Assembly (NCBI GenBank): GCA_930367215.1
Contig: OV884060.1
Span: 180,555,253 to 180,619,252, forward strand
Direction: 5' to 3'
Origin: Pollenia angustigena
Lineage: Eukaryota > Arthropoda > Insecta > Diptera > Polleniidae
Length of the DNA stretch: 64,000 nucleotides
Shown here: piece after piece, positions 2,339 through 46,970 of the stretch
Numbering within the stretch: position 1 is the first letter of the stretch
Layout: each line of letters starts with the position of its first letter
Position numbers and translations under genes: made by a program
Notes under the pieces: model-generated
Seen by the model: only the letters and a program-made list of their open reading frames with translations
What the model was told of the DNA's origin: nothing
Database searches by the model: none

Positions 2339-2360
2339 CTTTCATCTAGCAGGGGAGTAT

Positions 2361-2705
2361 TGTGGCACCCTGTTTGCCTACTCCGAATCATTTTTACATT
2401 TTTATGCAACTATGTAAAAAAGCTTTTAGTTGTAGTCCCTTTTTATTATTGCATTATCACTCACTTCTTGTTTAGTATTAAAAGTATAAAGTCGAGAGCT
2501 CTCCAAACAGTACAAAAATAAATTAATAATTTTGGTTAAATTTATAAATAAATAAAATTTAAATATATTTGTAAAAATAAGAAACATCACAAATTTTAAT
2601 TGTTTAGGCAAATAAAAGATTTGCCAAATACTAGTGTTCGCCTTATGGTCAAAATTCGACCATGATGGTTTTTTTTTCGTAAATATGAAGAAATCATAAT
2701 TCATC
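2361..2705 (+). repeat. Candidate 3' LTR of the Ty3 element
   Basis: A purine tract (AGGGGAG, 2351-2357) is followed by TGTGGCACC at 2361, the usual arrangement of polypurine tract and LTR start. An AATAAA-like signal lies near 2518. The right end cannot be fixed because no 5' LTR is in the window for comparison, and the element is closely followed by the tail of LINE A near 2712. Confidence 0.5.
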
Positions 2706-2711
2706 TAAGTA

Positions 2712-4033
2712 TAAATTTATTTATTTATTTAATAAAAGTATGTAATATACAAAAGGCCAATAAAAATATATTACAAAAGCAAAATCCTGAATGTTATTAA
2801 TGGATACAATAAATAATCAAAAACTTATTTATTCAAGTATGTAATTATAAAAATACAAAAATACAAATATGCAAATGGCTCCCCAGCCAAAGATTGAAAG
2901 AAATTTTTAAAAAATACTAATTTATCAATTAACAGGTCCCAAAGTAGTAGCTCAGATGAAAAAGATGAAAAAAAAAATAGATAAGTCAAGTAGATATATC
3001 ATTACTTTACAGAACATTCTGTCTGAAATAAAGCCGTACTCACTCATTAAACATAAGATCAGGCAAAAAGGGAAAAAAACAATCAAAAGAGTACCTAATC
3101 CTGAACAGAAAAGTGTAACATAATTTTTAACCGGAAAGCGTTATTTGAATGAGAGAATATACGAAGGTCCACTGGTAAATAATTCCAACATCGAGCTACT
3201 CTGACTAAAAACGACCGTTCAAAACAACTAAAACGAATTCTAGGTATAATAAGTTGTGGGTTCCTAGTTGAATGTGTGAAGCAAAACCTGAAACAAAGTT
3301 GAGAAGGTTGTCCAGTTTTCAAAACTCTAAAAAATAGTAGCAAGTTACGATAGGATATAAATCTTTTAAACGTACAACCAAGAAAATGTTTGACATACCC
3401 AGAAATATGCGCTCGACGTCGAACACCATACGTATATCGCACAATGGTATTCACAATACGATTCAATCTAGCCGTAACGAGAGCCAGAGAACCAGATACA
3501 ACTTCAAGCCCATAAAAAATATGCGGCATTAGTAGTACATAAGCCAATTTATACTTAATGTGAAATGGTAAATAAATATTGTTCGAGTAAATTCTTCTCA
3601 AAATTGCAGAGACCCTACAACAAATAACATCAACATGCTTATCAAAAATAAGACGATCATCAATGTAAATACCTAAACATCGCATCCGGTCAACAAAGGC
3701 AAGACTATCTCCACCAATAAAAATATTAAGGTCAACAAAATGATGACGAGTTACCCCAAAGAGGATCGCCTTTGCCTTAGAAGTATTGGTAATTAAGGAG
3801 TTACTAGACGTTCGTTTTGAAAACGGTTCAAGGCTAAAGTTGATGTTGGATTCAAGAACATCAGCATTATCACGATCAGCACCAAAAAGTAGAAATACAT
3901 CATCAGCAAAAAGAAAAGAACAGCACACATTATCATCAATATACTCGGAAAGGTCATTAACGTATAATATAAAAAGAAGTGGTCCTAAGACAGAGCCTTG
4001 AGGTACTCCTGAGTGAAGGGGAAGTATCCCTGA
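2712..4033 (-). pseudogene. LINE A, 3' part of ORF2 (reverse transcriptase C-terminal half)
   Basis: Read on the minus strand, this begins with SGVPQGSVLGPLL and YVNDL, then the RT active site FADD (near 3905), the CLGIYIDDRL and LRRIYSNN region, and the conserved LINE C-terminus NYLPVDLRIFSHSNNAF. The frame is open from about 4030 down to 3095. About 380 bases of AT-rich 3' UTR follow, ending in short TTTA-type repeats near 2712-2735, the same tail type as LINE C at 56684. Sequence upstream of SGVPQGS is missing here; a matching N-terminal RT piece lies at 9866-10330, on the far side of LINE B. I infer one LINE A copy split by the insertion of LINE B. Confidence 0.85.
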
Positions 4034-4317
4034 ATATTTTTTTTTTTTTTTTTTTTATTTATTTCTTCGATTACATAACCGAGCCCTTAGGGCCTTATAT
4101 GGTTAATAAAAACTACTAATTAAACAACAAACTTCAGTAATTAATAAAAAAAAAAATATAATAAACAAGAAAATAATGTTACTTATGTATATAAAACTTA
4201 TATATAAAGTTCAAAAATAAAATGAATACATTAAATAACAAAGACATAAAAAATGCTATATATTCTGTTTCCATATTACGCAGATAGAAAATTCCAAAAC
4301 AATGGCAAATGTTCGTT

Positions 4318-5163
4318 TTAGTGAATTGATAAGTTATTTAGCTCTGCAAATTCCATCAACTTAGATTTAAATAAATGCAGCGAATAAGAAAATTTTCTTA
4401 GATCCCTTGGCAAAGTATTCCAGATTTTTGAAACCCGAATCTGATATGATTGTCCAAAAGTGTTCAAACGTCTAATAGGAAAAATAATTTGAGGATTCCT
4501 TGTTGACCTAGAGAAATTGAAATTTTCAACAATATAATCAGGGTAACCATTTACAATGCATTTATAGAAAAATAGTAGTATTCTAAAGGCAATAAAATTT
4601 TCAAAAGATGTCCGTAGAAAGGTAAGCGTATGCCGACTTACATGATCACGAAATCTCAAACCAAAAACATAACGAATAATTCTGTTAAAAATAACCTTAA
4701 ATTTCTCAAGTACATAATTACCTGCGCCCGAAAAGACCTCCAGACAGTATAGTATATGTGGCATTAAGACCGCCACAGCCACCCGCCTTCTCACTGAACA
4801 AGGCAAGTAAATATTTAGAGAATAAAGTCTTTTCAAGACAAATGATACCCGAGACGACAGGTAATTAATATGAGGAGAAAAATTTAACAAGTTATCAATA
4901 ACGACCCCTAGACATTTCATTTTGTCAACAAAAATAACAGGAACACCGTCAATAGTAATGTTTATATTATTTGTCTCAAATCCAAACCCCATCACTTTCG
5001 TTTTAACTCGGTTGACACTGAATCCATTGTCATGAGCCCATGTTACCACCTCGCGAATTACATAATTAACACCCTCCTCCAACACGTCGAGGAACTCAGC
5101 ATCGGAATAACAAACAAATTGTACATCGTCAGCATAGGACGAAGGGCTTACAGGAGACGCCAT
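4318..5163 (-). pseudogene. LINE B ORF2, C-terminal frame (RT palm onward)
   Basis: This frame begins just upstream of the RT active site YADD (about 5130) and runs through CLGVVIDNLL, RLYSLNIYLP and the C-terminal WNTLPRDLRKFSYS segment to a stop at 4318. It overlaps the upstream ORF2 frame between 5129 and 5163. The frame change falls directly in the codons before YADD, so neither frame alone has an active polymerase. The apparent start codon is a by-product of the shift, not a real initiation site. Confidence 0.85.
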
Positions 5164-7150
5164 TAAATGTCTCTAACAGGTCATTAATATAAGTCATAAA
5201 AAGAAGCGGACCAATTACAGATCCTTGTGGAACACCACTTGTAATCTGACGAATCTGAGAGTAACGAGCGCCTACTGATACATACTGAGATCTATCATAA
5301 AGGTAAGATTCAATAAGTTTACATGCATAACGGGAAAAATTAAATTCATGAGACAATTTAAGTAGTAATTTAGAGTGTACTACTTTATCAAACGCTTTTG
5401 AGAAATCTATAGAAAGTAAAACCACGTTCTTACGACTATCTAAAAACTGTCTAATAGAATCTGTCAGAGACAATAGCAGCGAAGTTGTGTTATAACCTTT
5501 TCGAAATCCTGACTGTGCGGAGTGAATTAACGATCTCTGATCCAGAAATTCAATCATTTGGTCTTTAAAGATATGCTCAACTACCTTAGAAAGAACGGAA
5601 AGTATTGATATAGGCCGCAAGTTATCAAAACAAGACGACTGACCTTCCTTCTTGATAGGCACGACTCTGGCAATTTTCCAATTATGAGGAAAAGTTGATG
5701 TTGTTATAATCGTATTAACAAGGTGAAGCAAATGCGAGGAAACAAACGGAAAAATTATCTTTAAAAATCTTACTGATAACATATCATGACCCACAGCAGT
5801 GGATTTAATTCTTAGTAATGCAGTGTATAAAAAATCGGAATTAATACATTTAAAGGAAAACCCCGACCCAGAAAATCCCCCTGAATTACATAAGACACTT
5901 GGATTCTGATTTTGGCATTCAACAAAGTTATTATTTAAATCATCTGGCTCGGTAAAAGCCTCATGTTCTCGTGATTCGAGACATCCATTTCTTCTCAAAA
6001 AACGCCACATACTATCCGTACTGAAATCCTTAAAAAGTCGTTCATGTGCACCTCTTTTTAACTTTCGAATAACCCCTTTTACCTTATTCCTATATATACA
6101 ATAAATTTTCCAGTTACTCGGAGTCCTACTTTGAAGATAATGTCCATAGGCTAAGTCCCTAAGAGAAGTCCAGTAACTGATTTTATTACTATCAAGCCAA
6201 TTCTCCCTAGTAGAACATACTTTCCGTCTCACAACAGGAACAATTGAGTGAATTAGATTAATATTAAACATAAGTGCCTCAAGTTGCAAGTTAACATCAT
6301 TTGTAACATACATGTTAGTAAAGTCACATTCATGTGCTGCTGCCTCTACATCCTCAATTCTTAAGGCCTTATAATTTGGGTATGAAACAAAAAGTGGGGA
6401 AAGTGAATTTGGAATAAAAGCAGCAATAAAGATTAACGAATGGCGAGATATACCAGGGCACTGCATTTGACCTGCCACACCTAGAGAAATTGCTTTACTC
6501 ATAAAAAAGAAATCAATCAACGAAGTCGAATCACAACCTGCATGGTAATTCGTGGGAATAGAGTTATGATGGTACGTTAGATCTTGTCGTTGACAAATAG
6601 AGCGAACACAAAGGGAGTCTATTTGGCAAAATAAATTGGTGTTAAAATCGCCCATTACGATAACATTTGTATATCTAACTAGTAAATCACCGACACAATT
6701 CTCAAAGGCATTTATATTACCATCGGGTAAATAGCACACACCCACTAACAGTTTAAATTCTCGAATAGTGACTTCGACAAACAGCGCCTCACAAGCATCA
6801 CCACTATCAGACATAAACACAATTCTGTAATCCAGATTAGCTGATAGCAGCAACGCAACGCCTCCACCTCTTCTTCCATCTACTCTATCATTCCTACACA
6901 TATTATAACCCTGTATATTAACAGCATTTGACAAAACAAATGGTTTTAACCAAGTTTCACTCAGTCCAACTATATTCAGATAATTACCATCCAAAATTCG
7001 CCGAATTTCATCAAGTTTAGTAGAACCTGCAGACACACCAAAACTGGTTATATTCCAATGCCCAATTTTCAAACAATTATCCAAATTTTGTACGCTGTTA
7101 TAAATAAATGAATTATCACTGCAAACTGGACCCAAATTTATAGCATTCAT
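5129..7150 (-). pseudogene. LINE B ORF2, endonuclease and first part of RT
   Basis: A 673-codon frame. The AP-like endonuclease occupies roughly residues 28-260, with GHWNITSFG, LSETWL, RRGGGVALL, VMGDFN and SRHSLIF as the recognisable catalytic and metal-site blocks. RT follows from about residue 480: PIKKEG, LRPISILSVLSKVVEH, FRKGYNTTSLL, the first catalytic Asp in LLSIDFSKAFD, and SGVPQGSVIGPLL. The frame ends a few codons before the YADD box through a frameshift (5129-5163). The ATG at 7150 looks like a plausible ORF2 start, preceded within 30 bases by the end of the MITE. Confidence 0.88.
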
Positions 7151-26007: not shown

Positions 26008-26242
26008 CAAGGTATATTTATAGCAGGTAGCCGCGAGATTACAACAATTGTACAATAAAACAAACAACAGGGCTTTTTATTGTTGTTTTGCGATACGAAC
26101 TGTCAAACAGCAAAAGGGTTGAAAAGAGACAAAAACTTGTTTACTTGTTTACTATACAACATTTGACAGTTTGTATCGCAAAACAAGCAAATAAAAAATA
26201 ACCAGCTGGCTTTCCGAGACTACCTGCTATAAATATACCTTG
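26008..26242. mobile_element. 235-bp hAT MITE (CAAGGTATATTTATAGCAGG family)
   Basis: Ends CAAGGTATATTTATAGCAGG and inverse; the 8-bp duplication CGCAAAAT is exact (26000-26007, 26243-26250). The second copy at 43741-43988 is in opposite orientation. Confidence 0.92.
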
Positions 26243-26250
26243 CGCAAAAT

Positions 26251-26709
26251 GTTGCAAAATGTTGTCTGCGTACTCCAAATCTCTTGCAGCGAGAGAGCCA
26301 AAAAGAGAATTTTTTGACAGATGGAAGTTAGAGAGCTTGCAAAATGTTACTGGATAAATTTCCGCTTGCAAGATTTTGCAAATAGTTTGAACAGCTGGTA
26401 AGTAGTTAGAATTGTGTTGATTTTTAACGTTTATAATAAATTATAATAAACAAACCATTTTACTTCATGCTAGAAACGTCCAAAACAGAACCGTTTGTTT
26501 TTGTTAAAAAATGGGAAAAACAAAGTGCTGCCAAATTTATACACAATAAATTTGACAGTACCTGTCAATATTGACAGAACTTTTTTTGAAAAACAAGCGT
26601 TTAAAAAAAAAAACGTTAAATTTTTCCGCAAAACGTAAATATAAATAAAAACTTCCAAACAAAATAAAATAACAAATAATTATTAATAAAGAAATAACGG
26701 TTTAAGAAC
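26251..26709. other. Unassigned stretch left of the Harbinger relic
   Basis: AT-rich, with a GACAGTACCTGTCAATATTGACAG-like imperfect palindrome near 26556-26579. It may contain the 5' end of the Harbinger element, but no matching terminal repeat was found to the right. Confidence 0.35.
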
Positions 26710-27340
26710 ATGGATTCTGTTGCATTGTGGTAGGTAGATAGCGATAAAGAAAGTGATGCAATTGCAGAAAGAGTTCAACAGAAAATAATAAGAGATACAT
26801 CCGAGATTATGAGCCTTGCTAATCGTACGTAAAAGATTTTTTTAATTATGAAATTTAATCATAAAATTACTACTTTTAGTTTCTTGAAAAACTTTCGGCT
26901 TGATAAAAATTCATTTATGTATATCTACAATTGAATAAAAGGCGATTTAGAGCCACCTGAAAGATCGACGGTCATTGCACCTTTGAAAAAATTAGCTGCC
27001 AAATTAAAATATTTTGCACTAGTTGGATACCAATATCAGATTGGCCAAGATCGCCTTGTGGCCGATTTCAATTTCCATATGCTTATCTGTGGTATACGAA
27101 ATAATCGAACCAAATCTTTGCCCGAAGCATATTATCTTTGAAATGACTGAAGAAAAAAAAGGAGGCGAAAAGATATTTTTTTAATTAATATGGAATACTT
27201 GGAGTAATTGGAGCAGTAGACGGCACTCACATTCAAGTAATAAGGCCAAGAAACGATGAGCATTTATACTTCAACCGAAAACAGACATTTAACTTTAACG
27301 TGTTGTTTATAATCTTCCCGTACCTAGTAACAAAGCACAT
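26710..27340 (+). pseudogene. Harbinger (PIF) transposase relic
   Basis: The plus-strand reading starts MDSVALW-stop-VDSDKESDAIAERVQQK; a GT-AG intron-like gap (about 26827-26880) leads to FLKNFRLDKNSFMY, then LAAKLKYFALVGYQYQIGQD and, after frame changes, LGVIGAVDGTHIQV, the block carrying a catalytic Asp of the DDE_4/HARBI1 family, and RPRNDEHLYFNRKQTFNFN. Stops and frame changes show it is dead. Autonomous Harbingers encode this nuclease plus a Myb/SANT-like DNA-binding partner; the next entry is that partner in convergent orientation. Confidence 0.75.
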
Positions 27341-27369
27341 TTGTAAAAATAGTTAACACAAATCGATTA

Positions 27370-27557
27370 AATGATATCTCACTTTTTTCCAATTCACTAT
27401 ACGGTGGACCAGCCGCATCTTAATCCTTTGACAGTCTTTGCCACAAATCCTTCGACTTGCTTTTAGCATTTGCAACATTTAGGTGGCCCTTTGCTAAATC
27501 TGCATGTGCAACCATAAAATCAACCATCACCTCATACGGTCTTGGTTTTGTAAACAT
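27370..27557 (-). pseudogene. Harbinger Myb/SANT-like gene relic
   Basis: Minus-strand ATG at 27557 opens MFTKPRPYEVMVDFMVAHAD, then LAKGHLNVANAKSKSKDLWQ and RLSKD with an in-frame stop, followed by DAAGPPYS in the same frame. This resembles the start of the trihelix/Myb-like protein that accompanies PIF/Harbinger transposases. Seven bases upstream of the ATG the sequence is broken by the 14.8-kb palindromic element; its missing 5' side resumes at 42390. Confidence 0.65.
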
Positions 27558-28101
27558 TGCTTTGTTTGAAGTAGTGTGTTTAGAGCGGTTCTAGCGCAAC
27601 TACGCCATACAAAGTTGGGAGCATGTCGTAACCCAGTAAACAATTTCATGTGAAAACTATCGCCTATATATCGCCTTCTTATTGCCTCCAATTTAGGAGC
27701 ATGCAAGCAAACAATTGTTTGCTGGGTTATGCTATACATTTACTTGTGGGAAAATTTTTTTTTTATTTATTTAGTAGCAGATGTTAAATTTCTTCGTGTA
27801 CGTGTCAGTCTTAAAGATTTTAAAATTTTGTGAGGGATGATAATTTTACTTGTGCGTTTTCGTATTAACGATAAAACTGATCGTGGAATTATTATTTTTA
27901 GTTTTTCAGTTATTGTGTGTGTGTTTAGAATAGTTAATGACTTTGTTGCATAGGTTTTCTAGTGACTTTTTATATACATACCTCGGTAGGCTTGTGGGAT
28001 AGTGAGCTAATCTCAGTATAAGGGTTGCATATTTGATTATCACCAGAGATTCTGGTCTGTTTCACTACAACGAACTAATAGGCTAAGTAACTATTGATCG
28101 G

Positions 28102-28167
28102 TTGTGTGTGTGTGTGTGTGGGTGTGTGTGTGGGTGTGTGTGTGTGTGTATGTGTGTGTGTGTGTGG
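28102..28167 (+). repeat. (TG)n microsatellite
   Basis: Interrupted TG run, mirrored at 41156-41209 as CA. A similar pair lies at 28804-28852 and 40470-40520. Confidence 0.9.
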
Positions 28168-28803
28168 GTATGATTGATAACGATTATTCATGTGAAAAGT
28201 AGAATTCCATCCACTTTTTTTATATCAACAGCAACTAATATTTCAATTCAGTATTTATAAAAATATTTAACCATATTAAAATATCCCTACAGTAACAAAT
28301 ACGAACATGAGTGTAAAAGGAAAATGACGTGTAAAGAAAGTTTATTATTTAGCAGGTGTGACATTTTTATTAGTTGTAAAATTTCTTCTTGTACGTGTCT
28401 TGAAGATTTTAAATTTTGTGAGGGATGATAATTTTACTTGTGCGTTTTCGTATTAAAGGTAAAACTGATCGTGTAATAAGTATTTTTTTAGTTTTTTTTC
28501 AGTTATTGTGTATGTGTTTAGAATAGTTAATGACTTTGTTGCATAGGTTTTCTAGTGACTTTTTGCATTGAATGCCTCGGTAGGCTTGTGGGATCAACCA
28601 CTTCTTTTTATATCAACAGCAACCGGCTGCACATCACTTTTAATTACATTTAACAAATAGAAGGAGTTGTCATTTTTGGGTTTTGTTAATCTTAAATAGA
28701 ATTATATATAAATATTTTTTTTTTTTGCGCAGATTTAATTATCACAAGAGACTCTGGTCTGTTTCACTATAGCAGACTAAGGATCTAAGTAACTATTGAT
28801 CGG

Positions 28804-28811
28804 TTGTGTAT

Positions 28812-28852
<41 letters not shown>
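28804..28852 (+). repeat. (TG)n microsatellite
   Basis: Nearly pure TG run in the second direct repeat of the left arm; mirrored at 40470-40520. Confidence 0.9.
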
Positions 28853-28856
<4 letters not shown>

Positions 28857-30320
28857 TGATTGATAACGATTATTCATGTGAAAAGTAGGATTCCATCCAC
28901 TTTTTTTATATCAACAGCAACTAATATTTCAATTCAGTATTTATAAAAATATTTAACTATATTAAAATATCCCTACAGTAACAAATACGAACATGAGTGT
29001 AAAAGGGAAATGCCGTGTAAAGAAAGTTTATTATTTAGCAGGTGTGACATTTTTATTAGTTGTAAAATTTCTTCTTGTACGTGTCTTGAAGATTTTAAAT
29101 TTTGTGAGGGATGATAATTTTACTTGTGCGTATTCATATTGATGATTTACAAGTTGTTTATTTTAGTGGAAGGTGTGAAATTTCTTCGTGTTCGTGTCTT
29201 GAAGATTTTAAAATTTTGTGAGGGATGATAATTTTACTTGTGCGTTTTCGTATTAAAGGTAAAACTGATCGTGGAATAAGTATTTTTTTAGTTTTTTTTC
29301 AGTTATTGTGTATGTGTTTAGAATAGTTAATGACTTTGTTGCATAGGTTTTCTAGTGACTTTTTGCATTGAATGCCTCGGTAGGCTTGTGGGATCAACCA
29401 CTTTTTTTATATCAACAGCAACCGGCTGCACATCACTTTTAATTACATTTAACAAATAGAAGGAGTTGTCATTTTTGGGTTTTGTTAATCTTAAATAGAA
29501 TTATATATAAATATTTTTTTTTTGCGCAGATTTAATTATCACAAGAGACTCTGGTCTGTTTCACTACAACGGACTAAAGGTCAAAGTAACTATTAATCGG
29601 TTAATTAAGTTAGCATATAATTTTTGTTGATAACACTTAATAAGCATTTTCTAAAAACATTTGCAGATAGTTTCATTATTACTCAATGTTTATAACCTTT
29701 TATTTATTTTTTTCTAGTTTGATACTCTATAGTATAAGTTTAATGAAGAATTTTTCTATGGTTTGATACTCATCAATGACAGTATAGTTAAGAATTTAGT
29801 TCAATCCAAGGATACACTTCATACAGTTAATAATTATACATTATACATACAAATACAATAAAATTTCCATTTTATTAACCATAGTACATGGTTTATTAAT
29901 TGTTTTGATAATATTTAGTAAAAGTTTATATATAGTATAAACTTGAAGTCGATTATACCAATAGAATATTAAATGTTAATGAAAAAAGGAAATCATATTA
30001 CAAAATCAATTAAGATGATCTAAAAAAGAGTATTACATAGGAGTTTTGAATATTTAATAAGGAAATATCTATTATATCTGCTTATAATTATCAGTTAGAA
30101 ATTTAAAGATAACAAATTTGTTTTATAATTAGTACAGCATTATATGTTTTTTTTTTCTAGTTTATTAACCATACATTATCATACCATACCATTATAATCC
30201 ATAGAATATAAAACAATTTAAAATAGTTAAATCCGCAAAAGAAAATCAAAAAACTGTATTTATTTATTTATGTAAAACCTTACTCCATTAATCATTTATT
30301 TATACTTTATATATACTAAT

Positions 30321-32920
30321 ACCATGAAATGAATAGTTCAATAACCATATTATATGGTTTATTTAATGTTTTGTATACCGTTTTGTAATTCCTATAATTT
30401 GTTTTCCTATTATTTCCCTTATATATTTAAAATTTATACACTTCCATACATCCTTAAATATACATTCTGTTTTAAGCATTTCTACTATACATATATACAA
30501 ATTTTTTTTTTCTTATACTAACATTCTATATTTAATCTTAGTATTATAATCTTACTCTTGATTTTAATCTTAGTCTTAGTGTTAATCTTAATAGTAGTCT
30601 TTTGATCTTGGTTTTATAGTTTCGGATTTCGATCTTATTTTTTTTTTTTTTGTTTATAGACTTGCAACATTACTCTTGCGTGCTGCTTTGTTTACGTTTT
30701 CTTAGACTGAATACATATCTGGAAATTTAAAATTTCTTTAATTACATATAAAATATCTATCTACTGTTATACGAATGCTTTGAACTTAGTGTTTTCAATT
30801 GAAATATTAAACTTCGATTTTAAACAGACATATACATATTTTATTTTATATAAGAAATTAATACTCGATACTAGCGACAACCTCGAAGCTTGCACCGACC
30901 CCAGTTTTCATTACGTGCAAGAATCGAGTTTCTACTATACTTCATTATCATCAAACTAATCACACAAGGCGATTTTAAGAAAATCCATACTAATCCTTTC
31001 CATTTTATCAAATCTATCCATTATATTATTATTTTAATTTAAACAATTCTTATAAATTCTATTCAGTTCTCATATAATTTAATTCATTCTATATACAACC
31101 TTAACGAGTAATTCATATTTATGTATACAGTTTTTTCAAACCACTTTTAAAAACATATTTTGATTTTTACTTGTCTACTATATTAAAAAATAATCTATAA
31201 AGTTAAATGAAAATTTAGGTTTATATTAAGTAATTTAATTATACGCTGAGATACGCTGATGGTTTTTCTACCTTAAATTTATATATTGGATAGAAAGTTA
31301 AATCTGAATGTAGTGTTTCGGTAAGAATGTGTCTATATTACTTTAAATCAGGTTTCTTATAATATAAAGTTTTTGAATGAAATATTAACAATACTAATGT
31401 TAGTTTCAATCTAATTCCATTTAAATCATATATATATATATATACATATGTATATTAATTTGTTAGAATCAAACCATCAATTACCATCATGATCTTATTA
31501 ATGTCATATATTTTTTTTTTTTTTTCATTATTTTTATTATTCGTTAAAAACTTTATATTCTTATATATAGGAGATGCATATGATTTTGGATTTCTCCTTC
31601 ATTTTAAAATTGTTTGATTTTACAATTTTCATATTAGTTATTTCAGCCTTTTCATTATCATTATGATCATTATCATAATCATCATAATTAAGATCAGTTA
31701 TATTCTTTGCTCATTAAAAACAACAATTCTATTATCTTATGTTTTTTTTTCTAGTTTGCTACTCTATAATATTAGTTTAATGAAGAGTTTTTCTTTACCA
31801 CGAAATGAATAGTTTAATAACCATATTATATGGTTTATTTAATGTTTTTGCATACAGTTTTGTAATTCCTATAATTTGTTTTCCTTTTATTTCCCCTTCT
31901 ATACTTAATATTTATATACCTCCATACATCCTTAAATATACATTCTGTTTTAAGCATTTCTATACTATACATATATATAAATTTTTTCCTTTACTAACAT
32001 TCCTATATTTAGTCTTAATCTTATGATCTTAGTCTTGATTTTAATCTTAATCTTAGTGTTAATCTTGATAGTAGCCTTTTGGTCTTGGTTTTATAGTTTC
32101 AGATCTCAATCTTAGTTTTTGTATAGACATCTCATTTACAAACCTATAACTTCAATCTCATCAAACCTATCACACAAGACGATTGTCTTCTGTTTTTCAA
32201 GAAAATCCATACTAATCCTTTCCATTTTATCAACTCTATCCATTATATTATTATTTTAATTTTAACAAATCTTATAAATTCTATTCAGTTCTCACATAAA
32301 GTTATTCATTGTATATACAACCTTAACCATTATCTCATATTTATATATGCAGTTTTTCAAACCACTTTTTAAAACATAGTTTGATTTTTACTTGTCTACT
32401 ATATTAAAAAATAATCCATAAACTTAAATGAAAATTTAGATTTATATAAAGTAATTTGATTATACACTGAGATACGCTGATAGTTTTTCTACCTTAATTT
32501 TATATATTGGATAGAAAGTTACATCTGAATGTAGTGTTTCGGTAAGAATGTCTCTATATTACTTTAAATCAGGTTTCTTTAAATACAGAGTTTTTAAATA
32601 AAATATTAACAATCCTAATGTTAATTTCAATCTAATTTCATTTAAATCATATATATATATATATTAATTTGTTAGAATCAAACCATCAATTACCATCATG
32701 ATCTAATTAATGCCATATATTTTTTTTTTTTTATTATTATTTTTATTATTCGTTAAAAACTTTATATTCTTATATGTAGGAGATACATATGATTTAGGAT
32801 TTCTCCTTCATTTTAAACTTGTTTGATTTGAAAATTTTCATATTAGTTATTTCAACCTTTTCATTATCATTACACTCATTATCATAATCACCATAATTGA
32901 GATTAGTTATATTCTTTTCT
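30321..32920 (+). repeat. 1.1-1.4-kb tandem duplication within the left arm
   Basis: Both units start TACCATGAAATGAATAGTT-like (30323; 31797 as CCACGAAATGAATAGTT) and share TTATATGGTTTATTTAATG, AAGAAAATCCATACTAATCC, GAGATACGCTGAT and ACCATCAATTACCATCATGA. The first is longer, containing extra sequence around 30700-30950. The same duplication exists in the right arm, so it predates the palindrome or was copied with it. Confidence 0.75.
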
Positions 32921-34648
32921 CATTAAAACCAACAATTCTATTATCATAATCATCAAAATTGGGTTTAAATATATTTTGTTTTTATTTTTTCGTTGAAACC
33001 AACAAATCATAATCATTATTATCAAAATCAGGTTTATATATGTTTTTTTTTTTTTTTTTTAGTCAAGATACTTTAACATCATCATAATCAGAAATATTGT
33101 TTTTACAAATGTTGATATTGTGATTTTAATTAAACTGGTTATAATCACCTAAGGTTGAAATGATAGAGATGTTATCCGTTTAATTCTGTTGACTAATTCA
33201 CATTTATTAAGACATATAGATAATAACAGAATTGATAGAGGATTCATAATTGAATAACTTTGAATAAGAATTGAGCTTATAGTTGGATGTAAGTACGATT
33301 TAAACAATAATAACCGACATCGAATGAGTAATTCATCATTTTATTTAATTGAAAACATACCACTTTACATCAAGATACCTTATTTTTAATCTAGTAGCAT
33401 TAAGCAGTTACCTATTTTTGATCTGGTAATGTAGAAACAGGGAGAATTAATATCAGATTTAAATAACAAACCAAATATAAGATACATTATATAATCCAAC
33501 AACAACAACAATATATTCAACATGAATTAATTCGAAATAAAATACACACATTTCTTAAATACATTCAATTAGTTTGTCTTATAATTATACTTTAGCTGAG
33601 AGAGATTCATACCATAAACATATTTACACGTTATGCACTTACAACATAAAATTCAAAGTTTATTAACCATAATATATGGTTTTATATAATGTTTTAACAG
33701 CAATCATTAAAAATTTATATATAATATAAACTTATAGTTGACTGTACCATCAGAATTTTGACTGATAATATCACAATAGAATCATATTACACAAACAATA
33801 TATAGAATATTATAAAGAGAAAGGTACAAATTCATATGTCTATAGGTAACAGTTAAGAATTTTACAATATATTGGTTTAAGATATGTTATTTCTAATTAA
33901 GAGTTTAGTTTGATGGTTTTTGCAAGTTTATTTTCAATATAAATACATACATACATATTTGCTGATTTATTTCTATTTGATAATTTTTGATTTAATTGTT
34001 TTTTTTTTTCTTCTTTTTTACCTACAACACATTAATGAAATGGATATAAGATATACGTTCATGATGATGTTTTTTAACTCTTTTAAATATTTGTTAAATA
34101 TAGCTACATCAACTTCTTAATACATCGAATCAACTTACTTAGAATTAATTTTTAAATTAATATTTTGATATCCGTATACCCAGCTGATAGGCTGGTTGTG
34201 TATAGGTTTACGTGATAATCACAAATTTCTTTAAAATAATGAAATTTCATTGAATTAACTCTCAAATTGCAACCATACCCATAAAGTATAGATAGTACAT
34301 CCCATATAAATTTATACTTTTACATTAAATTATATAGTTTCACTATGTTCTCATCATGATTAATATAGAAAATCATATTTTCATATACCCACACCACAAA
34401 AGTAAAGAGTATATTAGATATACGTTAATACTGATCCTAGTTACCTTTTGATATACTAAATCAACTTATTTACTTAGAATTACTTTTTAAATCAATTTAA
34501 ACATGAACCAATCCGACTGGTTGGTGGGCTGTTCATATAAAACTAAAACTAAAATTTGATTTTTAGGTTTACATACACAGCTAGCTGTCTATTGGGTGAT
34601 TTATAGAACACAAACACAAAACTCATCAGTTCAACTTACATTTAAAAC

Positions 34649-34661
34649 AAAATTTGTTTCA
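34649..34661. other. Palindrome centre, 13-nt spacer
   Basis: The arms meet at ACATTTAAAAC and GTTTTAAATGT, leaving AAAATTTGTTTCA. With so short a spacer the DNA can extrude as a cruciform, and such centres are unstable in cloning and replication. Confidence 0.85.
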
Positions 34662-37600
34662 GTTTTAAATGTAAGTTGAACTGATGAGTTTTGTGTTTGT
34701 GTTCTATAAATCACCCAATAGACAGCTAGCTGTGTATGTAAACCTAAAAATCAAATTTTAGTTTTAGTTTTATATGAACAGCCCACCAACCAGTCGGATT
34801 GGTTCATGTTTAAATTGATTTAAAAAGTAATTCTAAGTAAATAAGTTGATTTAGTATATCAAAAGGTAACTAGGATCAGTATTAACGTATATCTAATATA
34901 CTCTTTACTTTTGTGGTGTGGGTATATGAAAATATGATTTTCTATATTAATCATGATGAGAACATAGTGAAACTATATACTTTAATGTAAAAGTATAAAT
35001 TTATATGGGATGTACTATCTATACTTTATGGGTATGGTTGCAATTTGAAAGTTAATTCAATGAAATTTCATTATTTTAAAGAAATTTGTGATTATCACGT
35101 AAACCTATACACAACCAGCCTATCAGCTGGGTATACGGATATCAAAATATTAATTTAAAAATTAATTCTAAGTAAGTTGATTCGATGTATTAAGAAGTTG
35201 ATGTAGCTATATTTAACAAATATTGAAAAGAGTTAAAAAACATCATCATGAACGTATATCTTATATCCATTTCATTAATGTGTTGTAGGTAAAAAAGAAG
35301 AAAAAAAAAAAAACAATTAAATCAAAAATTATCAAATAGAAATAAATCAGCAAATATGTATGTATGTATTTATATTGAAAATAAACTTGCAAAAACCATC
35401 AAACTAAACTCTTAATTAGAAATAACATATCTTAAACCAATATATTGTAAAATTCTTAACTGTTACCTATAGACATATGAATTTGTACCTTTCTCTTTAT
35501 AATATTCTATATATTGTTTGTGTAATATGATTCTATTGTGATATTATCAGTCAAAATTCTGATGGTACAGTCAACTATAAGTTTATATTATATATAAATT
35601 TTTAATGATTGCTGTTAAAACATTATATAAAACCATATATTATGGTTAATAAACTTTGAATTTTATGTTGTAAGTGCATAACGTGTAAATATGTTTATGG
35701 TATGAATCTCTCTCAGCTAAAGTATAATTATAAGACAAACTAATTGAATGTATTTAAGAAATGTGTGTATTTTATTTCGAATCAATTCATGTTGAATATA
35801 TTGTTGTTGTTGTTGTTGGATTATATAATGTATCTTATATTTGGTTTGTTATTTAAATCTGATATTAATTCTCCCTGTTTCTACATTACCAGATCAAAAA
35901 TAGGTTTGTAACTGCTTAATGCTACTAGATTAAAAATAAGGTATCTTGATGTAAAGTGGTATGTTTTCAATTAAATAAAATGATGAATTACTCATTCGAT
36001 GTCGGTTATTATTGTTTAAATCGTACTTACATCCAACTATAAGCTCAATTCTTATTCAAAGTTATTCAATTATGAATCCTCTATCAATTCTGTTATTATC
36101 TATATGTCTTAATAAATGTGAATTAGTCAACAGAATTAAACGGATAACATCTCTATCATTTCAACCTTAGGTGATTATAACCAGTTTAATTAAAATCACA
36201 ATATCAACATTTGTAAAAACAATATTTCTGATTATGATGATGTTAAAGTATCTTGACTAAAAAAAAAAAAAAAAACATATATAAACCTGATTTTGATAAT
36301 AATGATTATGATTTGTTGGTTTCAACGAAAAAATAAAAACAAAATATATTTAAACCCAATTTTGATGATTATGATAATAGAATTGTTGGTTTTAATGAGA
36401 AAAGAATATAACTAATCTCAATTATGGTGATTATGATAATGAGTGTAATGATAATGAAAAGGTTGAAATAACTAATATAAAAATTTTCAAATCAAACAAG
36501 TTTAAAATGAAGGAGAAATCCTAAATCATATGTATCTCCTACATATAAGAATATAAAGTTTTTAACGAATAATAAAAATAATAATAAAAAAAAAAAAAAT
36601 ATATGGCATTAATTAGATCATGATGGTAATTGATGGTTTGATTCTAACAAATTAATATATATATATATATATATATGATTTAAATGAAATTAGATTGAAA
36701 TTAACATTAGGATTGTTAATATTTTATTTAAAAACTCTGTATTATAAGAAACCTGATTTAAAGTAATATAGAGACATTCTTACCGAAACACTACATTCAG
36801 ATGTAACTTTCTATCCAATATATAAAATTAAGGTAGAAAAACTATCAGCGTATCTCAGTGTATAATCAAATTACTTTATATAAATCTAAATTTTCATTTA
36901 AGTTTATGGATTATTTTTTAATATAGTAGACAAGTAAAAATCAAACTATGTTTTAAAAAGTGGTTTGAAAAACTGCATATATAAATATGAGATAATGGTT
37001 AAGGTTGTATATACAATGAATAACTTTATGTGAGAACTGAATAGAATTTATAAGATTTGTTAAAATTAAAATAATAATATAATGGATAGAGTTGATAAAA
37101 TGGAAAGGATTAGTATGGATTTTCTTGAAAAACAGAAGACAATCGTCTTGTGTGATAGGTTTGATGAGATTGAAGTTATAGGTTTGTAAATGAGATGTCT
37201 ATACAAAAACTAAGATTGAGATCCGAAACTATAAAACCAAGACCAAAAGGCTACTATCAAGATTAACACTAAGATTAAGATTAAAATCAAGACTAAGATC
37301 ATAAGATTAAGACTAAATATAGGAATGTTAGTAAAGGAAAAAATTTATATATATGTATAGTATAGAAATGCTTAAAACAGAATGTATATTTAAGGATGTA
37401 TGGAGGTATATAAATATTAAGTATAGAAGGGGAAATAAAAGGAAAACAAATTATAGGAATTACAAAACTGTATGCAAAAACATTAAATAAACCATATAAT
37501 ATGGTTATTAAACTATTCATTTCGTGGTAAAGAAAAACTCTTCATTAAACTAATATTATAGAGTAGCAAACTAGAAAAAAAAACATAAGATAATAGAATT

Positions 37601-40468
37601 GTTGTTTTTAATGAGCAAAGAATATAACTGATCTTAATTATGATGATTATGATAATGATCATAATGATAATGAAAAGGCTGAAATAACTAATATGAAAAT
37701 TGTAAAATCAAACAATTTTAAAATGAAGGAGAAATCCAAAATCATATGCATCTCCTATATATAAGAATATAAAGTTTTTAACGAATAATAAAAATAATGA
37801 AAAAAAAAAAAAAATATATGACATTAATAAGATCATGATGGTAATTGATGGTTTGATTCTAACAAATTAATATACATATGTATATATATATATATATGAT
37901 TTAAATGGAATTAGATTGAAACTAACATTAGTATTGTTAATATTTCATTCAAAAACTTTATATTATAAGAAACCTGATTTAAAGTAATATAGACACATTC
38001 TTACCGAAACACTACATTCAGATTTAACTTTCTATCCAATATATAAATTTAAGGTAGAAAAACCATCAGCGTATCTCAGCGTATAATTAAATTACTTAAT
38101 ATAAACCTAAATTTTCATTTAACTTTATAGATTATTTTTTAATATAGTAGACAAGTAAAAATCAAAATATGTTTTTAAAAGTGGTTTGAAAAAACTGTAT
38201 ACATAAATATGAATTACTCGTTAAGGTTGTATATAGAATGAATTAAATTATATGAGAACTGAATAGAATTTATAAGAATTGTTTAAATTAAAATAATAAT
38301 ATAATGGATAGATTTGATAAAATGGAAAGGATTAGTATGGATTTTCTTAAAATCGCCTTGTGTGATTAGTTTGATGATAATGAAGTATAGTAGAAACTCG
38401 ATTCTTGCACGTAATGAAAACTGGGGTCGGTGCAAGCTTCGAGGTTGTCGCTAGTATCGAGTATTAATTTCTTATATAAAATAAAATATGTATATGTCTG
38501 TTTAAAATCGAAGTTTAATATTTCAATTGAAAACACTAAGTTCAAAGCATTCGTATAACAGTAGATAGATATTTTATATGTAATTAAAGAAATTTTAAAT
38601 TTCCAGATATGTATTCAGTCTAAGAAAACGTAAACAAAGCAGCACGCAAGAGTAATGTTGCAAGTCTATAAACAAAAAAAAAAAAAATAAGATCGAAATC
38701 CGAAACTATAAAACCAAGATCAAAAGACTACTATTAAGATTAACACTAAGACTAAGATTAAAATCAAGAGTAAGATTATAATACTAAGATTAAATATAGA
38801 ATGTTAGTATAAGAAAAAAAAAATTTGTATATATGTATAGTAGAAATGCTTAAAACAGAATGTATATTTAAGGATGTATGGAAGTGTATAAATTTTAAAT
38901 ATATAAGGGAAATAATAGGAAAACAAATTATAGGAATTACAAAACGGTATACAAAACATTAAATAAACCATATAATATGGTTATTGAACTATTCATTTCA
39001 TGGTATTAGTATATATAAAGTATAAATAAATGATTAATGGAGTAAGGTTTTACATAAATAAATAAATACAGTTTTTTGATTTTCTTTTGCGGATTTAACT
39101 ATTTTAAATTGTTTTATATTCTATGGATTATAATGGTATGGTATGATAATGTATGGTTAATAAACTAGAAAAAAAAAACATATAATGCTGTACTAATTAT
39201 AAAACAAATTTGTTATCTTTAAATTTCTAACTGATAATTATAAGCAGATATAATAGATATTTCCTTATTAAATATTCAAAACTCCTATGTAATACTCTTT
39301 TTTAGATCATCTTAATTGATTTTGTAATATGATTTCCTTTTTTCATTAACATTTAATATTCTATTGGTATAATCGACTTCAAGTTTATACTATATATAAA
39401 CTTTTACTAAATATTATCAAAACAATTAATAAACCATGTACTATGGTTAATAAAATGGAAATTTTATTGTATTTGTATGTATAATGTATAATTATTAACT
39501 GTATGAAGTGTATCCTTGGATTGAACTAAATTCTTAACTATACTGTCATTGATGAGTATCAAACCATAGAAAAATTCTTCATTAAACTTATACTATAGAG
39601 TATCAAACTAGAAAAAAATAAATAAAAGGTTATAAACATTGAGTAATAATGAAACTATCTGCAAATGTTTTTAGAAAATGCTTATTAAGTGTTATCAACA
39701 AAAATTATATGCTAACTTAATTAACCGATTAATAGTTACTTTGACCTTTAGTCCGTTGTAGTGAAACAGACCAGAGTCTCTTGTGATAATTAAATCTGCG
39801 CAAAAAAAAAATATTTATATATAATTCTATTTAAGATTAACAAAACCCAAAAATGACAACTCCTTCTATTTGTTAAATGTAATTAAAAGTGATGTGCAGC
39901 CGGTTGCTGTTGATATAAAAAAAGTGGTTGATCCCACAAGCCTACCGAGGCATTCAATGCAAAAAGTCACTAGAAAACCTATGCAACAAAGTCATTAACT
40001 ATTCTAAACACATACACAATAACTGAAAAAAAACTAAAAAAATACTTATTCCACGATCAGTTTTACCTTTAATACGAAAACGCACAAGTAAAATTATCAT
40101 CCCTCACAAAATTTTAAAATCTTCAAGACACGAACACGAAGAAATTTCACACCTTCCACTAAAATAAACAACTTGTAAATCATCAATATGAATACGCACA
40201 AGTAAAATTATCATCCCTCACAAAATTTAAAATCTTCAAGACACGTACAAGAAGAAATTTTACAACTAATAAAAATGTCACACCTGCTAAATAATAAACT
40301 TTCTTTACACGGCATTTCCCTTTTACACTCATGTTCGTATTTGTTACTGTAGGGATATTTTAATATAGTTAAATATTTTTATAAATACTGAATTGAAATA
40401 TTAGTTGCTGTTGATATAAAAAAAGTGGATGGAATCCTACTTTTCACATGAATAATCGTTATCAATCA

Positions 40469-40513
<45 letters not shown>

Positions 40514-42389
40514 ATACACAACCGATCAATAGTTACTTAGATCCTTAGTCTGCTATAGTGAAACAGACCAGAGTCTCTTGTGATAATTAAATCTGCGCAA
40601 AAAAAAAAAATATTTATATATAATTCTATTTAAGATTAACAAAACCCAAAAATGACAACTCCTTCTATTTGTTAAATGTAATTAAAAGTGATGTGCAGCC
40701 GGTTGCTGTTGATATAAAAAGAAGTGGTTGATCCCACAAGCCTACCGAGGCATTCAATGCAAAAAGTCACTAGAAAACCTATGCAACAAAGTCATTAACT
40801 ATTCTAAACACATACACAATAACTGAAAAAAAACTAAAAAAATACTTATTACACGATCAGTTTTACCTTTAATACGAAAACGCACAAGTAAAATTATCAT
40901 CCCTCACAAAATTTAAAATCTTCAAGACACGTACAAGAAGAAATTTTACAACTAATAAAAATGTCACACCTGCTAAATAATAAACTTTCTTTACACGTCA
41001 TTTTCCTTTTACACTCATGTTCGTATTTGTTACTGTAGGGATATTTTAATATGGTTAAATATTTTTATAAATACTGAATTGAAATATTAGTTGCTGTTGA
41101 TATAAAAAAAGTGGATGGAATTCTACTTTTCACATGAATAATCGTTATCAATCATACCCACACACACACACACATACACACACACACACACCCACACACA
41201 CACACACAACCGATCAATAGTTACTTAGCCTATTAGTTCGTTGTAGTGAAACAGACCAGAATCTCTGGTGATAATCAAATATGCAACCCTTATACTGAGA
41301 TTAGCTCACTATCCCACAAGCCTGCCGAGGTATGTATATAAAAAGTCACTAGAAAACCTATGCAACAAAGTCATTAACTATTCTAAACACACACACAATA
41401 ACTGAAAAACTAAAAATAATTATTCCACGATCAGTTTTATCGTTAATACGAAAACGCACAAGTAAAATTATCATCCCTCACAAAATTTTAAAATCTCTAA
41501 GACTGACACGTAGGGCACTGCTACACGTTCAATAAATATCGTGATATTTGGATCACGATCCATTTTAAAATATTGATGGATCACGAGCGTATGCTACATG
41601 TTCAATATTTATCGCGTCAGTATTTTTGTTATTTTTATGTATTTTGTTTATTTTAATAATTTTTGCAGTGCAGTCGCTCTTTTTATTTTGTCGGAATAAG
41701 CTTTAGCCGACAAGTCCCACAATTCCGGCAATGCCTCCAAACTAAAAATGAAATCTTTTAAAAAATTTTTTCACTTGTTAATTCCGATTCCACCGGCAGA
41801 ACCCACTCGATTTCACTGTCTTCTGCCATTACCCTTTATTTCAATAAACTTTTCACAAAATTTGTCAATTATTTTACTTTTTATTTGTTTAATTTTTTCC
41901 ACTGCGTATTTTATTTCCTTTATTTTGACACTTTTTACTGACGTATTAATTTTTATAATTATTATTTTATATCATGAAAATGCTACACGTTCAATAGTTA
42001 TCACGCGATCCACGATCCGCGATCTGGATTTCTGGATTTCATATTTTAGGCCATTCTGCGATATGGATCGCGATCCATCAATATTGCATGCTACACGTTC
42101 AATAAATATCGTGATACTAGAAATATCACGATATTTATTGAACGTGTAGCAGTGCCCGTACACGAAGAAATTTAACATCTGCTACTAAATAAATAAAAAA
42201 AAAATTTTCCCACAAGTAAATGTATAGCATAACCCAGCAAACAATTGTTTGCTTGCATGCTCCTAAATTGGAGGCAATAAGAAGGCGATATATAGGCGAT
42301 AGTTTTCACATGAAATTGTTTACTGGGTTACGACATGCTCCCAACTTTGTATGGCGTAGTTGCGCTAGAACCGCTCTAAACACACTACT
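34662..42389 (-). repeat. Right arm of the palindrome
   Basis: 7728 bp, inverse of the left arm. Differences I could see: the MITE at 41513-42157; a 4-bp insertion (TTGT) in GATCAAAAATAGGT...AACTGC at about 35896; a T/C change in CCTCGG(T/C)AGGCTTG (27977 against about 41326); CTTTAAATAC against CTTATAATAC (32577 against about 36742); and different (TG)n lengths. Most other stretches that I compared are identical. Confidence 0.85.
41513..42157. mobile_element. 645-bp MITE with fossil MADF-like exons, in the right arm only
   Basis: Ends GGGCACTGCTACACGTTC and inverse; 3-bp duplication GTA (41510-41512, 42158-42160). The left arm has the joined, empty site near 27797. On the minus strand it reads MAEDSEIEWVLPVESEL (about 41850 down), then an intron-like gap, then LEALPELWDLSAKAYSDK, resembling the start of a MADF domain. 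It is thus a deletion derivative of an element with a MADF gene, likely PIF/Harbinger. Sister copy at 44710-45378. Confidence 0.85.
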
Positions 42390-42395
42390 GTTTGA

Positions 42396-43589
42396 GCTTT
42401 CCCTAAAGCATTTAAAAAAATTGCTATGTATAAAACTTTTCAGACTTAAAACAAAAAAAGTTGTGACAACAAACACATGGTATAAATTGTGATTTCAAGT
42501 CACTCACAGTTCTAAATATAGAGGATGTCTTATGTTTTTAATTGTATTTTGGACTATTTGTAAAAAGTTTTATTTACTTACTTATATTTTTAAATTTTTT
42601 ATCGTTTTCGCAAGCACAGCCACTTTCGAATAATTTACGAACAATTTAAATGAACTGACATTTGCTTTCGTATTACATAGTTGCAATTGTAAAAGGGTAA
42701 TTTTCAATTTACGAAAAGGGGTAAAAAATCCCGCAAAAATAAAATATTTCCGAACGTTCGAAAATAAATTTTCGAAAAACGTACTACATAATAAAATTTG
42801 TACGAATTCGTAAATCTTTTCGTTCGATTCGTATTACATAATAACCCCCAGAGCTATTATTTTCATTTTGTCCTACTTATATTATGCAACACGACGCACA
42901 ATGGTTTCATTCATTCAAATGTCAACAAATTTCAGTTTCTTATCGTTGTGCAATAAAAATCTAAAGTCTTTTGATTGTTGCCAATATATTGTGGCACCTT
43001 CGAATATTACATACACATCGGCGATATAATTGTACAATACGTAAAATTGAACAATTTTATTGCAAGTATATGTGCCGCTTAAGATAGCTTAATTAAAATG
43101 TAAGAGTTCCAGCTATTAAAAATCCCAAAACGAACGATTCAGAAAATTATATGAAAATATTAAGTTTGTTGCTTCAGGCGTTTAGGCTGTGCGGTGATGA
43201 ATCAGTCAGTCAATCAGTGAGTCAGTCAGTCAGTATTGTTACAATTTTATATACATACATACATATGTATAAAGATAACTGAATATTTATTTGTTTTTAC
43301 GAAATTCACGGTTGAATTTTTGACAGTAAAATTAAAAGAAACTTTTCGTTAAAATTAAATGAAAAATAAGTAGACCAGGTTTTAACCGAAACTTCTACTT
43401 TTTGTAACGTAACGCCAGAAGTAATTTAAATTATTTCTCAATTAAATTTTATTGTATGTATAATTTAGGTACTTTTTTATATTTTGGTGTAAAGCGCAAC
43501 TGCATTTAGTTTTGCGTCACTTTATTAGGACACCCTGCAATAACTTTAGTTATTCTGAAGCAAGTGAACAAGTGCAATAGAAAAAAGTT
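42396..43589. other. Continuation of the Harbinger relic and intergenic DNA
   Basis: The first bases continue the Harbinger Myb leader interrupted by the palindrome. Around 42665-42850, TCGTATTACATA occurs repeatedly (CTTTCGTATTACATAG, GATTCGTATTACATAATAACCC), possibly the end of that transposon. A GTCAGTCAGT microsatellite lies at 43202-43235. No gene. Confidence 0.4.
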
Positions 43590-44112
43590 GTTTTAATGGG
43601 CCGAGGAAAAACCTTAACATAAGCTAAAAAAAAAGTTAAAATCTTTAGGAATCTAAATAATCGATAAACAAAATTGCTGAACGAATCAAAAAAAAACCGA
43701 AATGTGGCATCGTATACGGGAAAAATATGAAAGGCCATACCAAGGTATATTTATAGCAGGTAGTCTTGGAAAGCCAGCTGGTTATTTTTTATTTGCTTGT
43801 TTTGCGATACAAACTGTCAAAGTTGTATAGTAAACAAGTAAACAAGTTTTTTGTTTTTATCTTTTGTCTCTTTTCAACCCCTTTGCTGTTTGACAGTTCG
43901 TATCATAAAACAACAATAAAAAGCCCTGTTGTTTGTTTTATTGTACAATTGTTGTAATCTCGCGGCTACCTGCTATAAATATACCTTGGGCCATACTAAC
44001 AGTGTACTTTTGGCAACTAATAAACGTGCTATTCTCAGAGCAGTATCAAATTCTCATGACTCGTCTGCACAAATTAAAGCTAAAGAACAGTGCAGCGTGT
44101 AATTTCGAAGCC
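43590..44112 (+). pseudogene. Tc1/mariner-like transposase, N-terminal relic
   Basis: Reading from 43595 gives MGRGKTLT and further helix-turn-helix-like scraps. After the hAT MITE (43741-43988) it continues as NKRAILRAVSNSHDSSAQIKAK, resembling Tc1 helix-turn-helix text. Stops are frequent. The C-terminal part appears at 45500-45778. Confidence 0.55.
43741..43988. mobile_element. 248-bp hAT MITE (CAAGGTATATTTATAGCAGG family), second copy
   Basis: Inverse orientation relative to 26008-26242; 8-bp duplication GGCCATAC is exact (43733-43740, 43989-43996). It splits the Tc1-like relic. Confidence 0.92.
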
Positions 44113-44700: not shown

Positions 44701-44709
44701 GAACTCATA

Positions 44710-45378
44710 GGGCACAGCTACACGTTCAATAAATATCGTGATATTTGGATCGCGATCCATTTTAAAATATTGATGGATCACGAGCGTATGCTACATGTTC
44801 AATATTTATCGCGTCAGTATTTATGTTATTTTTGTGTTGTGCGGGTCGTTTATCAATGTCGCGAGAAAACCAAAAGAAAGCCTGTTTACCTATTTTGCTT
44901 GCTTTTTTAAAAACCTTTAATAATTTTTGCAGTGCAGTCGCTGTTTTTATTTTGTCGGAATAAGCTTTAGCCGACGAGTCCCACAATTCCGGCAATGCCT
45001 CCAAATTAAAAATGAAATCTTTTAAAATAATTTATTCACTGCTTAATTCCGATTCCACCGGCAGAACCCACTCGATTTCACTGTCTTCTGCCATTACCCT
45101 TTATTTCAATAAACTTTACACAAATTTGGTCAATTGTTTAACTTTTTATTTGTTTAATTTTTTCCACTGCGTAATTTATTTCTTTTATTTTGACACTTTT
45201 TACTGACGTATCATGACTATTTAATATCATGAAATTGCTACACGTTCAATATTTATCAGGCGATCCACGATCCGCGATCTGGATTTCATATTTTAGGCCA
45301 TTCTGCGATATGGATCGCGATCCATCTATATTGCATATTTCTAGTATCACGATATTTATTGAACGTGTAGCAGTGCCC
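44710..45378. mobile_element. 669-bp MITE with fossil MADF-like exons, second copy
   Basis: GGGCAC(A)GCTACACGTTC end and inverse ...GTGTAGCAGTGCCC; 3-bp duplication ATA (44707-44709, 45379-45381). The minus-strand reading MEALPELWDSSAKAYSDK (45004 down) and an upstream exon (MAEDSEIEWVLPV, about 45095) are retained as in 41513-42157. It carries about 50 bp not present in that copy near 44840-44900. Confidence 0.85.
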
Positions 45379-46540: not shown

Positions 46541-46547
46541 ATACAAA

Positions 46548-46970
46548 ATGGCTTTCGGTGATTATCCAGCTGAATACAACCCCAAAGTACATGGTCCTTA
46601 TGACCCTGCACGCTTCTATGGCAAAGGTAATGCATTATTGCAAAAAAAATGTTTAATACATTTTTTGTATTACGTAAGATTAAAAAGGGTATGTAATTTA
46701 TGAAATCGTTGCTTCTCTTTTGCAGCTGATGTTCCATTAGGACAAGTTAAGGTAGGTGAATTGGGTGCTTGGTTAGCACGCCGCAATAAGACTCCCAATG
46801 CCATGGCTGGCGCAATTAGTCGTGCATGGTGGCGTTGGCAACACAAATATGTGCAACCTAAACGTGCTGGTATTGCACCGTTCTTTCAAATCACAGTAGC
46901 TGCTATGACTTTCTTCTATGCCATCAACTACGGCAAGATGAGACACCACAGAAACTACAAATACCATTAA
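46548..46970 (+). CDS. ATPsynF: Mitochondrial ATP synthase subunit f
   Basis: Two coding exons, 46548-46626 and 46726-46970, joined at G/CT within an Ala codon (donor GTAATG, acceptor TTTTGCAG), giving 107 residues, the length I recall for the Drosophila protein. The N-terminus MAFGDYPAEYNPKVHGPYDP, the central WLARRNKTPNA and AWWRWQHKYVQPKRAG, and the single membrane helix (about residues 77-95, IAPFFQITVAAMTFFYAIN) followed by basic HHRNYKYH are those of insect subunit f. It is a membrane-sector (Fo) subunit in the inner mitochondrial membrane that supports dimerisation and proton channel assembly; it has no catalytic role. The gene is compact and lies between transposon-rich blocks, with no sign of damage. 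A polyadenylation signal follows at 47088. Confidence 0.96.

Follow-up and report, generated by a model that had tools for sequence, protein, structure and literature searches.

Polintons (Mavericks, or polintoviruses) have the termini 5'-AG..CT-3'. They are described as elements of 15-20 kb that carry genes for PolB, integrase, ATPase, protease and capsid (PMC4028283) and that make 6-bp target-site duplications (PMC10045372). Duplications of 6 bp are also given for IS3EU and GingerRoot, the termini of which are TA..TA, or occasionally TG..CA in GingerRoot (PMC10045372). Among foldback-type elements (FB, Galileo, Tetris), duplications are 7-8 bp in Galileo (PMC4168063) and 8-10 bp in Tetris, with terminal inverted repeats (TIRs) of up to 1,735 bp in the latter (PMC4079207). 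We analyzed a 64,000-nt stretch of the genome of the fly Pollenia angustigena (GCA_930367215.1, contig OV884060.1, positions 180,555,253 to 180,619,252; here the window), in which an element of 14,820 bp at positions 27570-42389 forms a near-perfect palindrome, as identified by blastn of the window against itself. The sequence evidence supports the assignment of this element as a putative non-autonomous, wholly palindromic and gene-free Polinton derivative. Its gene content sets it apart from a Polinton proper, as genes for PolB, integrase, ATPase, protease and capsid are all lacking, and we therefore file it as a non-autonomous derivative.

The palindrome consists of a left arm of 7,079 bp (27570..34648, + strand), an asymmetric 13-nt central spacer (AAAATTTGTTTCA; 34649..34661, + strand) and a right arm of 7,728 bp (34662..42389, - strand) that includes a 648-bp insertion found in this arm only (41513..42160; most of it matches window positions 44708-45336 at 91-97%). 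In the self-comparison, 27799-41512 aligns inverted onto itself at 99.33%, and 27570-27802 aligns with 42389-42157 at 100%. Apart from the insertion, the arm alignment contains 17 small differences, given as 11 substituted bases and 7 indels of 1-14 bp (11/7,064 sites differ). The outer termini are AGTAGTG and CACTACT, and each is abutted by a copy of GTTTGA (27564..27569 and 42390..42395), recognized as the target-site duplication from the flanks and from empty sites with a single GTTTGA. The two inverse arms of ~7.1 kb, the 13-nt spacer, the ends and the hexamers on both outer sides are all as stated in the original prediction, the span of which (27564..42395) is the palindrome plus both duplications.

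The GC content within the element is ~21 to 33% in 2-kb windows. No open frame in the arm exceeds chance expectation (the longest is 82 aa, and the mean longest frame in 50 shuffles is 82.6 aa), and tblastn gave no Polinton protein match in the arm beyond a block of TIR-like sub-repeats. Thus, the absence of genes that had been proposed is upheld. The accompanying proposal, that the element is TIR from end to end, holds in that it is palindromic throughout, with the qualification that resemblance to a Polinton TIR is confined to about the outer 2 kb of each arm (below).

The flanks of the palindrome, joined via one GTTTGA (352 nt), were used to search the genome (1.37 Gb, 31 contigs). All 40 places scored, out of 254 candidates, matched at 95-98% identity across the junction, which shows the flanks to be the halves of a single repeat. 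At 4/4 loci inspected the empty junction is ungapped, with one GTTTGA; the palindrome was thus inserted in one piece into a repeat that was already there. Both points had been predicted, together with a Harbinger identity for the repeat, for which a search with + strand frames gave no Pfam hit at 1e-3. The older repeat, which surrounds the palindrome at 26008..43988, may be Harbinger-like on the basis of a sequence motif and of an inverted pair (26008-26242 and 43741-43988). Outside the element, Sphinx conserved regions 1 and 2 were identified by Rfam at window positions 46543-46642 and 46803-46960 (72.5 and 115.3 bits); these were the only Rfam matches in the window.

The ends of the palindrome recur in the genome, as expected for a mobile family. 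The 171-bp end gave 409 first-look candidates, the best 40 of which were scored as matches. The exact 26-nt end occurs 35 times in the genome and 0 times in a reversed control, and a 31-nt end motif (allowing up to 2 mismatches) occurs 78 times, again with 0 in the control, forming 28 inward-facing pairs within 60 kb. The terminal 22-mer has 0 occurrences in viral contigs. The terminal 12 bp of the family ends, AGTAGTGTGTTT, are almost constant, and the next ~8 bp vary (AGAGCGGT, AGAGGGGT, GAAAGAGT, ATGCCGCT and others), mostly being equal at both ends of an element. Thirteen end pairs were read at both flanks; an exact 6-bp target-site duplication is present in 12 of these, and all 13 sequences differ. 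Further copies with duplications of their own are therefore present, in line with the predicted transposition. The 13 pairs comprise two coding Polintons (C4:239.98M and C2:105.16M), ten palindromes, and the unclassified pair C5:82.43M. Seven of the ten were called palindromic by arm maps (the window copy and six others) and the rest by other signs, namely inverted probe pairs at C1:122.48M and C6:8.09M and the center at C2:80.22M. The other palindromic copies without nested insertions are 10.6-15.1 kb long.

Probes from within the arm extend this picture. A mid-arm probe (best 40 of 915 candidates) placed 24 loci, 16 of them inverted pairs that are all inward-facing, and an inner-arm probe (best 40 of 422 candidates) gave 10 inverted pairs, 5 of them new, as counted by eye. 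By the number of candidates there may be hundreds of arms in the genome, although this is no copy count. Near-perfect palindromes are a known class of assembly or library artefact (fold-back chimeras). Such an origin is very improbable here, given the distinct flanks with matching duplication at 12/13 end pairs, the private mutations of each copy, the one shared center and the nested insertions (see below).

Elements with coding capacity share these ends. We read inside two end pairs with unusual motif variants: C4:56.16M contained satellite only, with no gene within the 10 kb taken, and C2:105164658-105184260 is an element of 19.6 kb with the duplication GCAAGC, as read from its flanks. The latter encodes an integrase core (PF00665, rve; 1.5e-15) and matches to the double-jelly-roll (DJR) capsid (PF21738; 5.9e-90 and 7.2e-44), along with a chromodomain match under the Pfam cut-off. 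It also encodes a protein with a BIR (inhibitor of apoptosis) domain (L070:470-838, +; PF00653, 3.9e-17). A search with its integrase (best 150 of 3,999 candidates scored, all with E <= 2.5e-53) placed integrase within 6 of the 28 end pairs, three of which (C4:48.19M, C2:107.54M and C4:239.98M) have the exact 26-nt end of the palindrome. Matches were compared with the end pairs by script for 23 of the 150 and by eye for the remainder, none of which lies inside a further pair. The integrase-bearing end pairs are 15.6-29.1 kb long.

The resemblance extends inward from the ends. The left TIR of C2:105.16M is collinear with arm positions 1-666 (27570..28235, + strand) at 94.1% identity, gaps excluded (197 gap columns). 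The TIR of C4:239.98M is ~1.13 kb; its right copy matches arm positions 1-161 at 97%, and its left copy matches 175-441 at 92.5% and 1-286 at 80% with gaps. Pieces of the sub-repeat block (27570..29602, + strand) match Polinton TIRs to arm position ~1,880 (C4:239.98M) and ~2,030 (C2:105.16M). In the pieces taken, no Polinton TIR match at E 1e-5 lies farther in than ~2,030; the inner left arm that follows (29603..34648, + strand) is AT-rich and non-coding.

An 854-aa frame near the right TIR of C4:239.98M, open at the edge of the piece, has insect proteins as its best homologues. Several of the 120 homologues listed carry the PolB domain PF03175, and a Musca protein named DNA polymerase is 54% identical over 97% of the frame. 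Pfam recognized no PolB in the frame itself, and PDB, PHROGs and lax Pfam searches gave only endonuclease VII and zinc-finger matches. A genome-wide Pfam search for PF03175 had no hit, nor did its control match; since the PF03175 model misses the 854-aa frame, this null result says little. The frame is thus assigned as a probable PolB through its PF03175-annotated homologues. Close homologues occur in Lucilia, Stomoxys, Calliphora and Musca, which points to a calyptrate fly as the probable host. From the combination of integrase, capsid, PolB homology, TIR and duplication we conclude that these elements are Polintons, a call that draws on several copies, as not all genes are shown in one. Autonomous-type Polintons with the ends of the palindrome are therefore present in the same genome, in favor of the suggested Polinton helper. 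The palindrome shares with them the 6-bp duplication, the AG..CT termini and the TIR.

An alternative is that the palindrome belongs to the foldback or Galileo type and owes its movement to a transposase of the P or Mutator type. Its very long terminal repeats with internal sub-repeats are indeed of the kind described for Tetris (PMC4079207). However, the duplications are 6 bp, as against 7-8 bp in Galileo (PMC4168063) and 8-10 bp in Tetris, and the ends and TIR belong to Polintons that code for integrase. We thus give this explanation very little credence.

We built a tree of 14 arms from seven copies, using only arm positions 2100-7079 to avoid the sub-repeats. In 7/7 copies the tree joins the arms as sisters (support 0.85-1.00), and in 121 of 139 arm-arm differences one state is private to that copy. 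Divergence between the arms is 0.16-0.74% in six copies and 1.78% in the 36.6-kb copy C4b, and arms of different copies diverge by 0.56-3.2%; in raw distance, each arm is closest to its sister in 5/7 copies. Nested insertions also bear on the exchange between arms. C4b carries four copies (one partial) of a long interspersed nuclear element (LINE) that are 98.9-99.9% identical, at the same arm position and with the same 9-10-bp duplication, two per side and in opposite orientation. Their shared position and duplication indicate one insertion, copied across the center and duplicated. The palindrome at C2:92.33M has a long terminal repeat (LTR) element in one arm, and the other arm is too short to contain it as well.

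The spacer AAAATTTGTTTCA is common to the 11 copies with a complete center, in both genomic orientations. In nine of these 11 the two arms are mismatched at a position 11 nt away from the spacer, and each base of the mismatch always lies on its own side; the mismatch is missing in the window copy and in L041, which also has a duplicated inner part. Not counted among the 11 are C6a, C4b and C2e, which have no complete center, and C4c, in which one side is missing; of 12 central stretches taken, L050-L053 and L056 were without the apex. The retention of the phased mismatch is most simply explained if the palindrome is inherited whole, with conversion rarely at the apex, and suggests that the studied copies descend from a single palindromic founder, which transposes intact. 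The sister relationship of the arms in 7/7 copies and the 121/139 differences private to a copy could also be produced if the palindrome were rebuilt from a single arm at each transposition (hairpin copying), leaving the arms identical each time. However, copying from one arm would erase the mismatch that is phased in 9/11 centers and in both orientations, and we thus disfavor this rebuilding and consider it improbable.

Taken together, we judge it probable, with good confidence, that the element is a Polinton-derived, non-autonomous palindrome that is acted on in trans, descends from one founder, and has arms homogenized by conversion. Given the shared ends and duplications, Polinton integrase would act in trans on the retained Polinton terminal repeats, and the protein-primed replication machinery of Polintons probably acts on the palindrome too. 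The integrase would insert the intact palindrome, making the 6-bp duplication. After insertion, gene conversion between arms, probably in a cruciform or hairpin form, would homogenize the arms of each copy; it may copy even a 5-kb nested insertion and would seldom reach the last ~11 nt beside the spacer.

Several observations weigh against parts of this account. No integrase was found in 22 of the 28 end pairs among the 150 scored matches (a count in which not all pairs were read), and the duplication at C5:82.43M is 5 bp. None of the Polinton pieces examined has a counterpart to the inner 5 kb of the arm, a weak alignment of AT-rich sequence (63 columns, 74.6%, E 2e-4) being left out of account. 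Six inner-arm matches at C1:99.17-99.25M are all on the same strand, and some fragments are thus not palindromic. Both states occur in other copies for 18 of the 139 arm differences, and the sister is, by raw distance, not the nearest arm for one C6a arm nor for either arm of C4b, at the 1.78% noted above. C4b has undergone rearrangement, and sub-repeats may have been mixed in the calling of its arms.

As to how the founder arose, one conjecture is a snapback product of protein-primed replication, comparable to self-complementary defective viral genomes. By this analogy, the element would be a polintovirus snapback genome turned transposon, having lost its genes, kept the ends needed for replication and integration at either terminus and become parasitic on Polintons. 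We hold this only tentatively; no Polinton piece examined holds the inner arm, which counts against it. Alternatively, with the same element and helper, the founder may have formed as in Galileo and foldback elements, its TIRs growing step by step and its coding middle being lost. The outer 2 kb of the arm consists of TIR-like sub-repeats, the inner arm has no recognizable Polinton gene, and elements with variable nested and satellite content exist, all of which speaks for this route. The center, however, is a short 13-nt turn common to 11 copies, and the copies read include no intermediate form in which long arms still enclose part of a gene core. Stepwise expansion is therefore a possible origin to which we likewise give tentative weight.

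Some family members are enlarged or arranged in other ways. End pairs of 37-42 kb were considered as autonomous elements and rejected, as the three pairs read proved to be palindromes to which nested LINEs or arrays of a ~103-bp satellite had added length. An autonomous core at C2:92.33M was likewise rejected; the content is a nested gypsy-like LTR element (L041:3453-9257, -) with gag-, pol- and env-like frames recognized by eye. The satellite, with a unit of ~103-105 bp, forms kb-long arrays of units 77-88% alike in three elements with Polinton-type ends (L022, C6:21.41M; L031, C4:47.87M; L062, C4:56.16M), reminiscent of satellite growth in Tetris. C4b lies, by coordinates, inside another family end pair ~60.1 kb apart (C4:248522440-248582541), which would fit the insertion of one family member into another. 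On one strand, three identical family ends (C5:210242414, 210262452 and 210282489) are spaced by 20,038 and 20,037 bp, as if units of ~20 kb were repeated in tandem there. At C1:99.17-99.25 Mb, two pairs of same-strand matches ~3.46 kb apart form a direct array of arm pieces, the inverted partner of which was not found among the scored inner-arm matches.

Rapid loss would be expected of long palindromes in which the spacer is tiny. A ~15-kb palindrome that has spread to many loci and is yet homogeneous provides a natural series for the study of arm conversion and of the stability of the center. It also suggests that a parasite without genes can be sustained by Polintons, and connects the biology of transposons with that of defective viral genomes. 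Were the snapback origin true, a hairpin former nearly as large as its helper could be replicated, and perhaps packaged, and could compete with that helper as defective interfering viruses do.

Searches of the open literature listed no description of a Polinton that is palindromic or lacks genes, and the phrase non-autonomous Polinton or Maverick is absent from the papers retrieved on the topic; Repbase and most subscription papers lie outside that search. Among described systems, Polintons are the closest, sharing the 6-bp duplications, the AG..CT ends and the terminal-repeat sequence; the 14,820 bp of the element lie just under the 15-20 kb given for Polintons (PMC4028283). Unlike the palindrome, which has no genes and is arm from end to end, they carry genes between TIRs that are here ~0.9-1.1 kb. 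The AG..CT termini also set the element apart from IS3EU and GingerRoot, with their TA..TA. Foldback-type elements are alike in having long TIRs with internal sub-repeats and, in the case of Tetris, in the satellite arrays inside some copies; they differ from the palindrome in its 7-kb arms, its Polinton ends, and its duplications of 6 bp rather than 7-10 bp. The snapback defective genomes of adeno-associated virus (AAV) resemble it in being self-complementary and helper-dependent (PMC8235507). They are not integrated transposons, use another replication system and keep parts of viral genes, and they thus serve as an analogy only.

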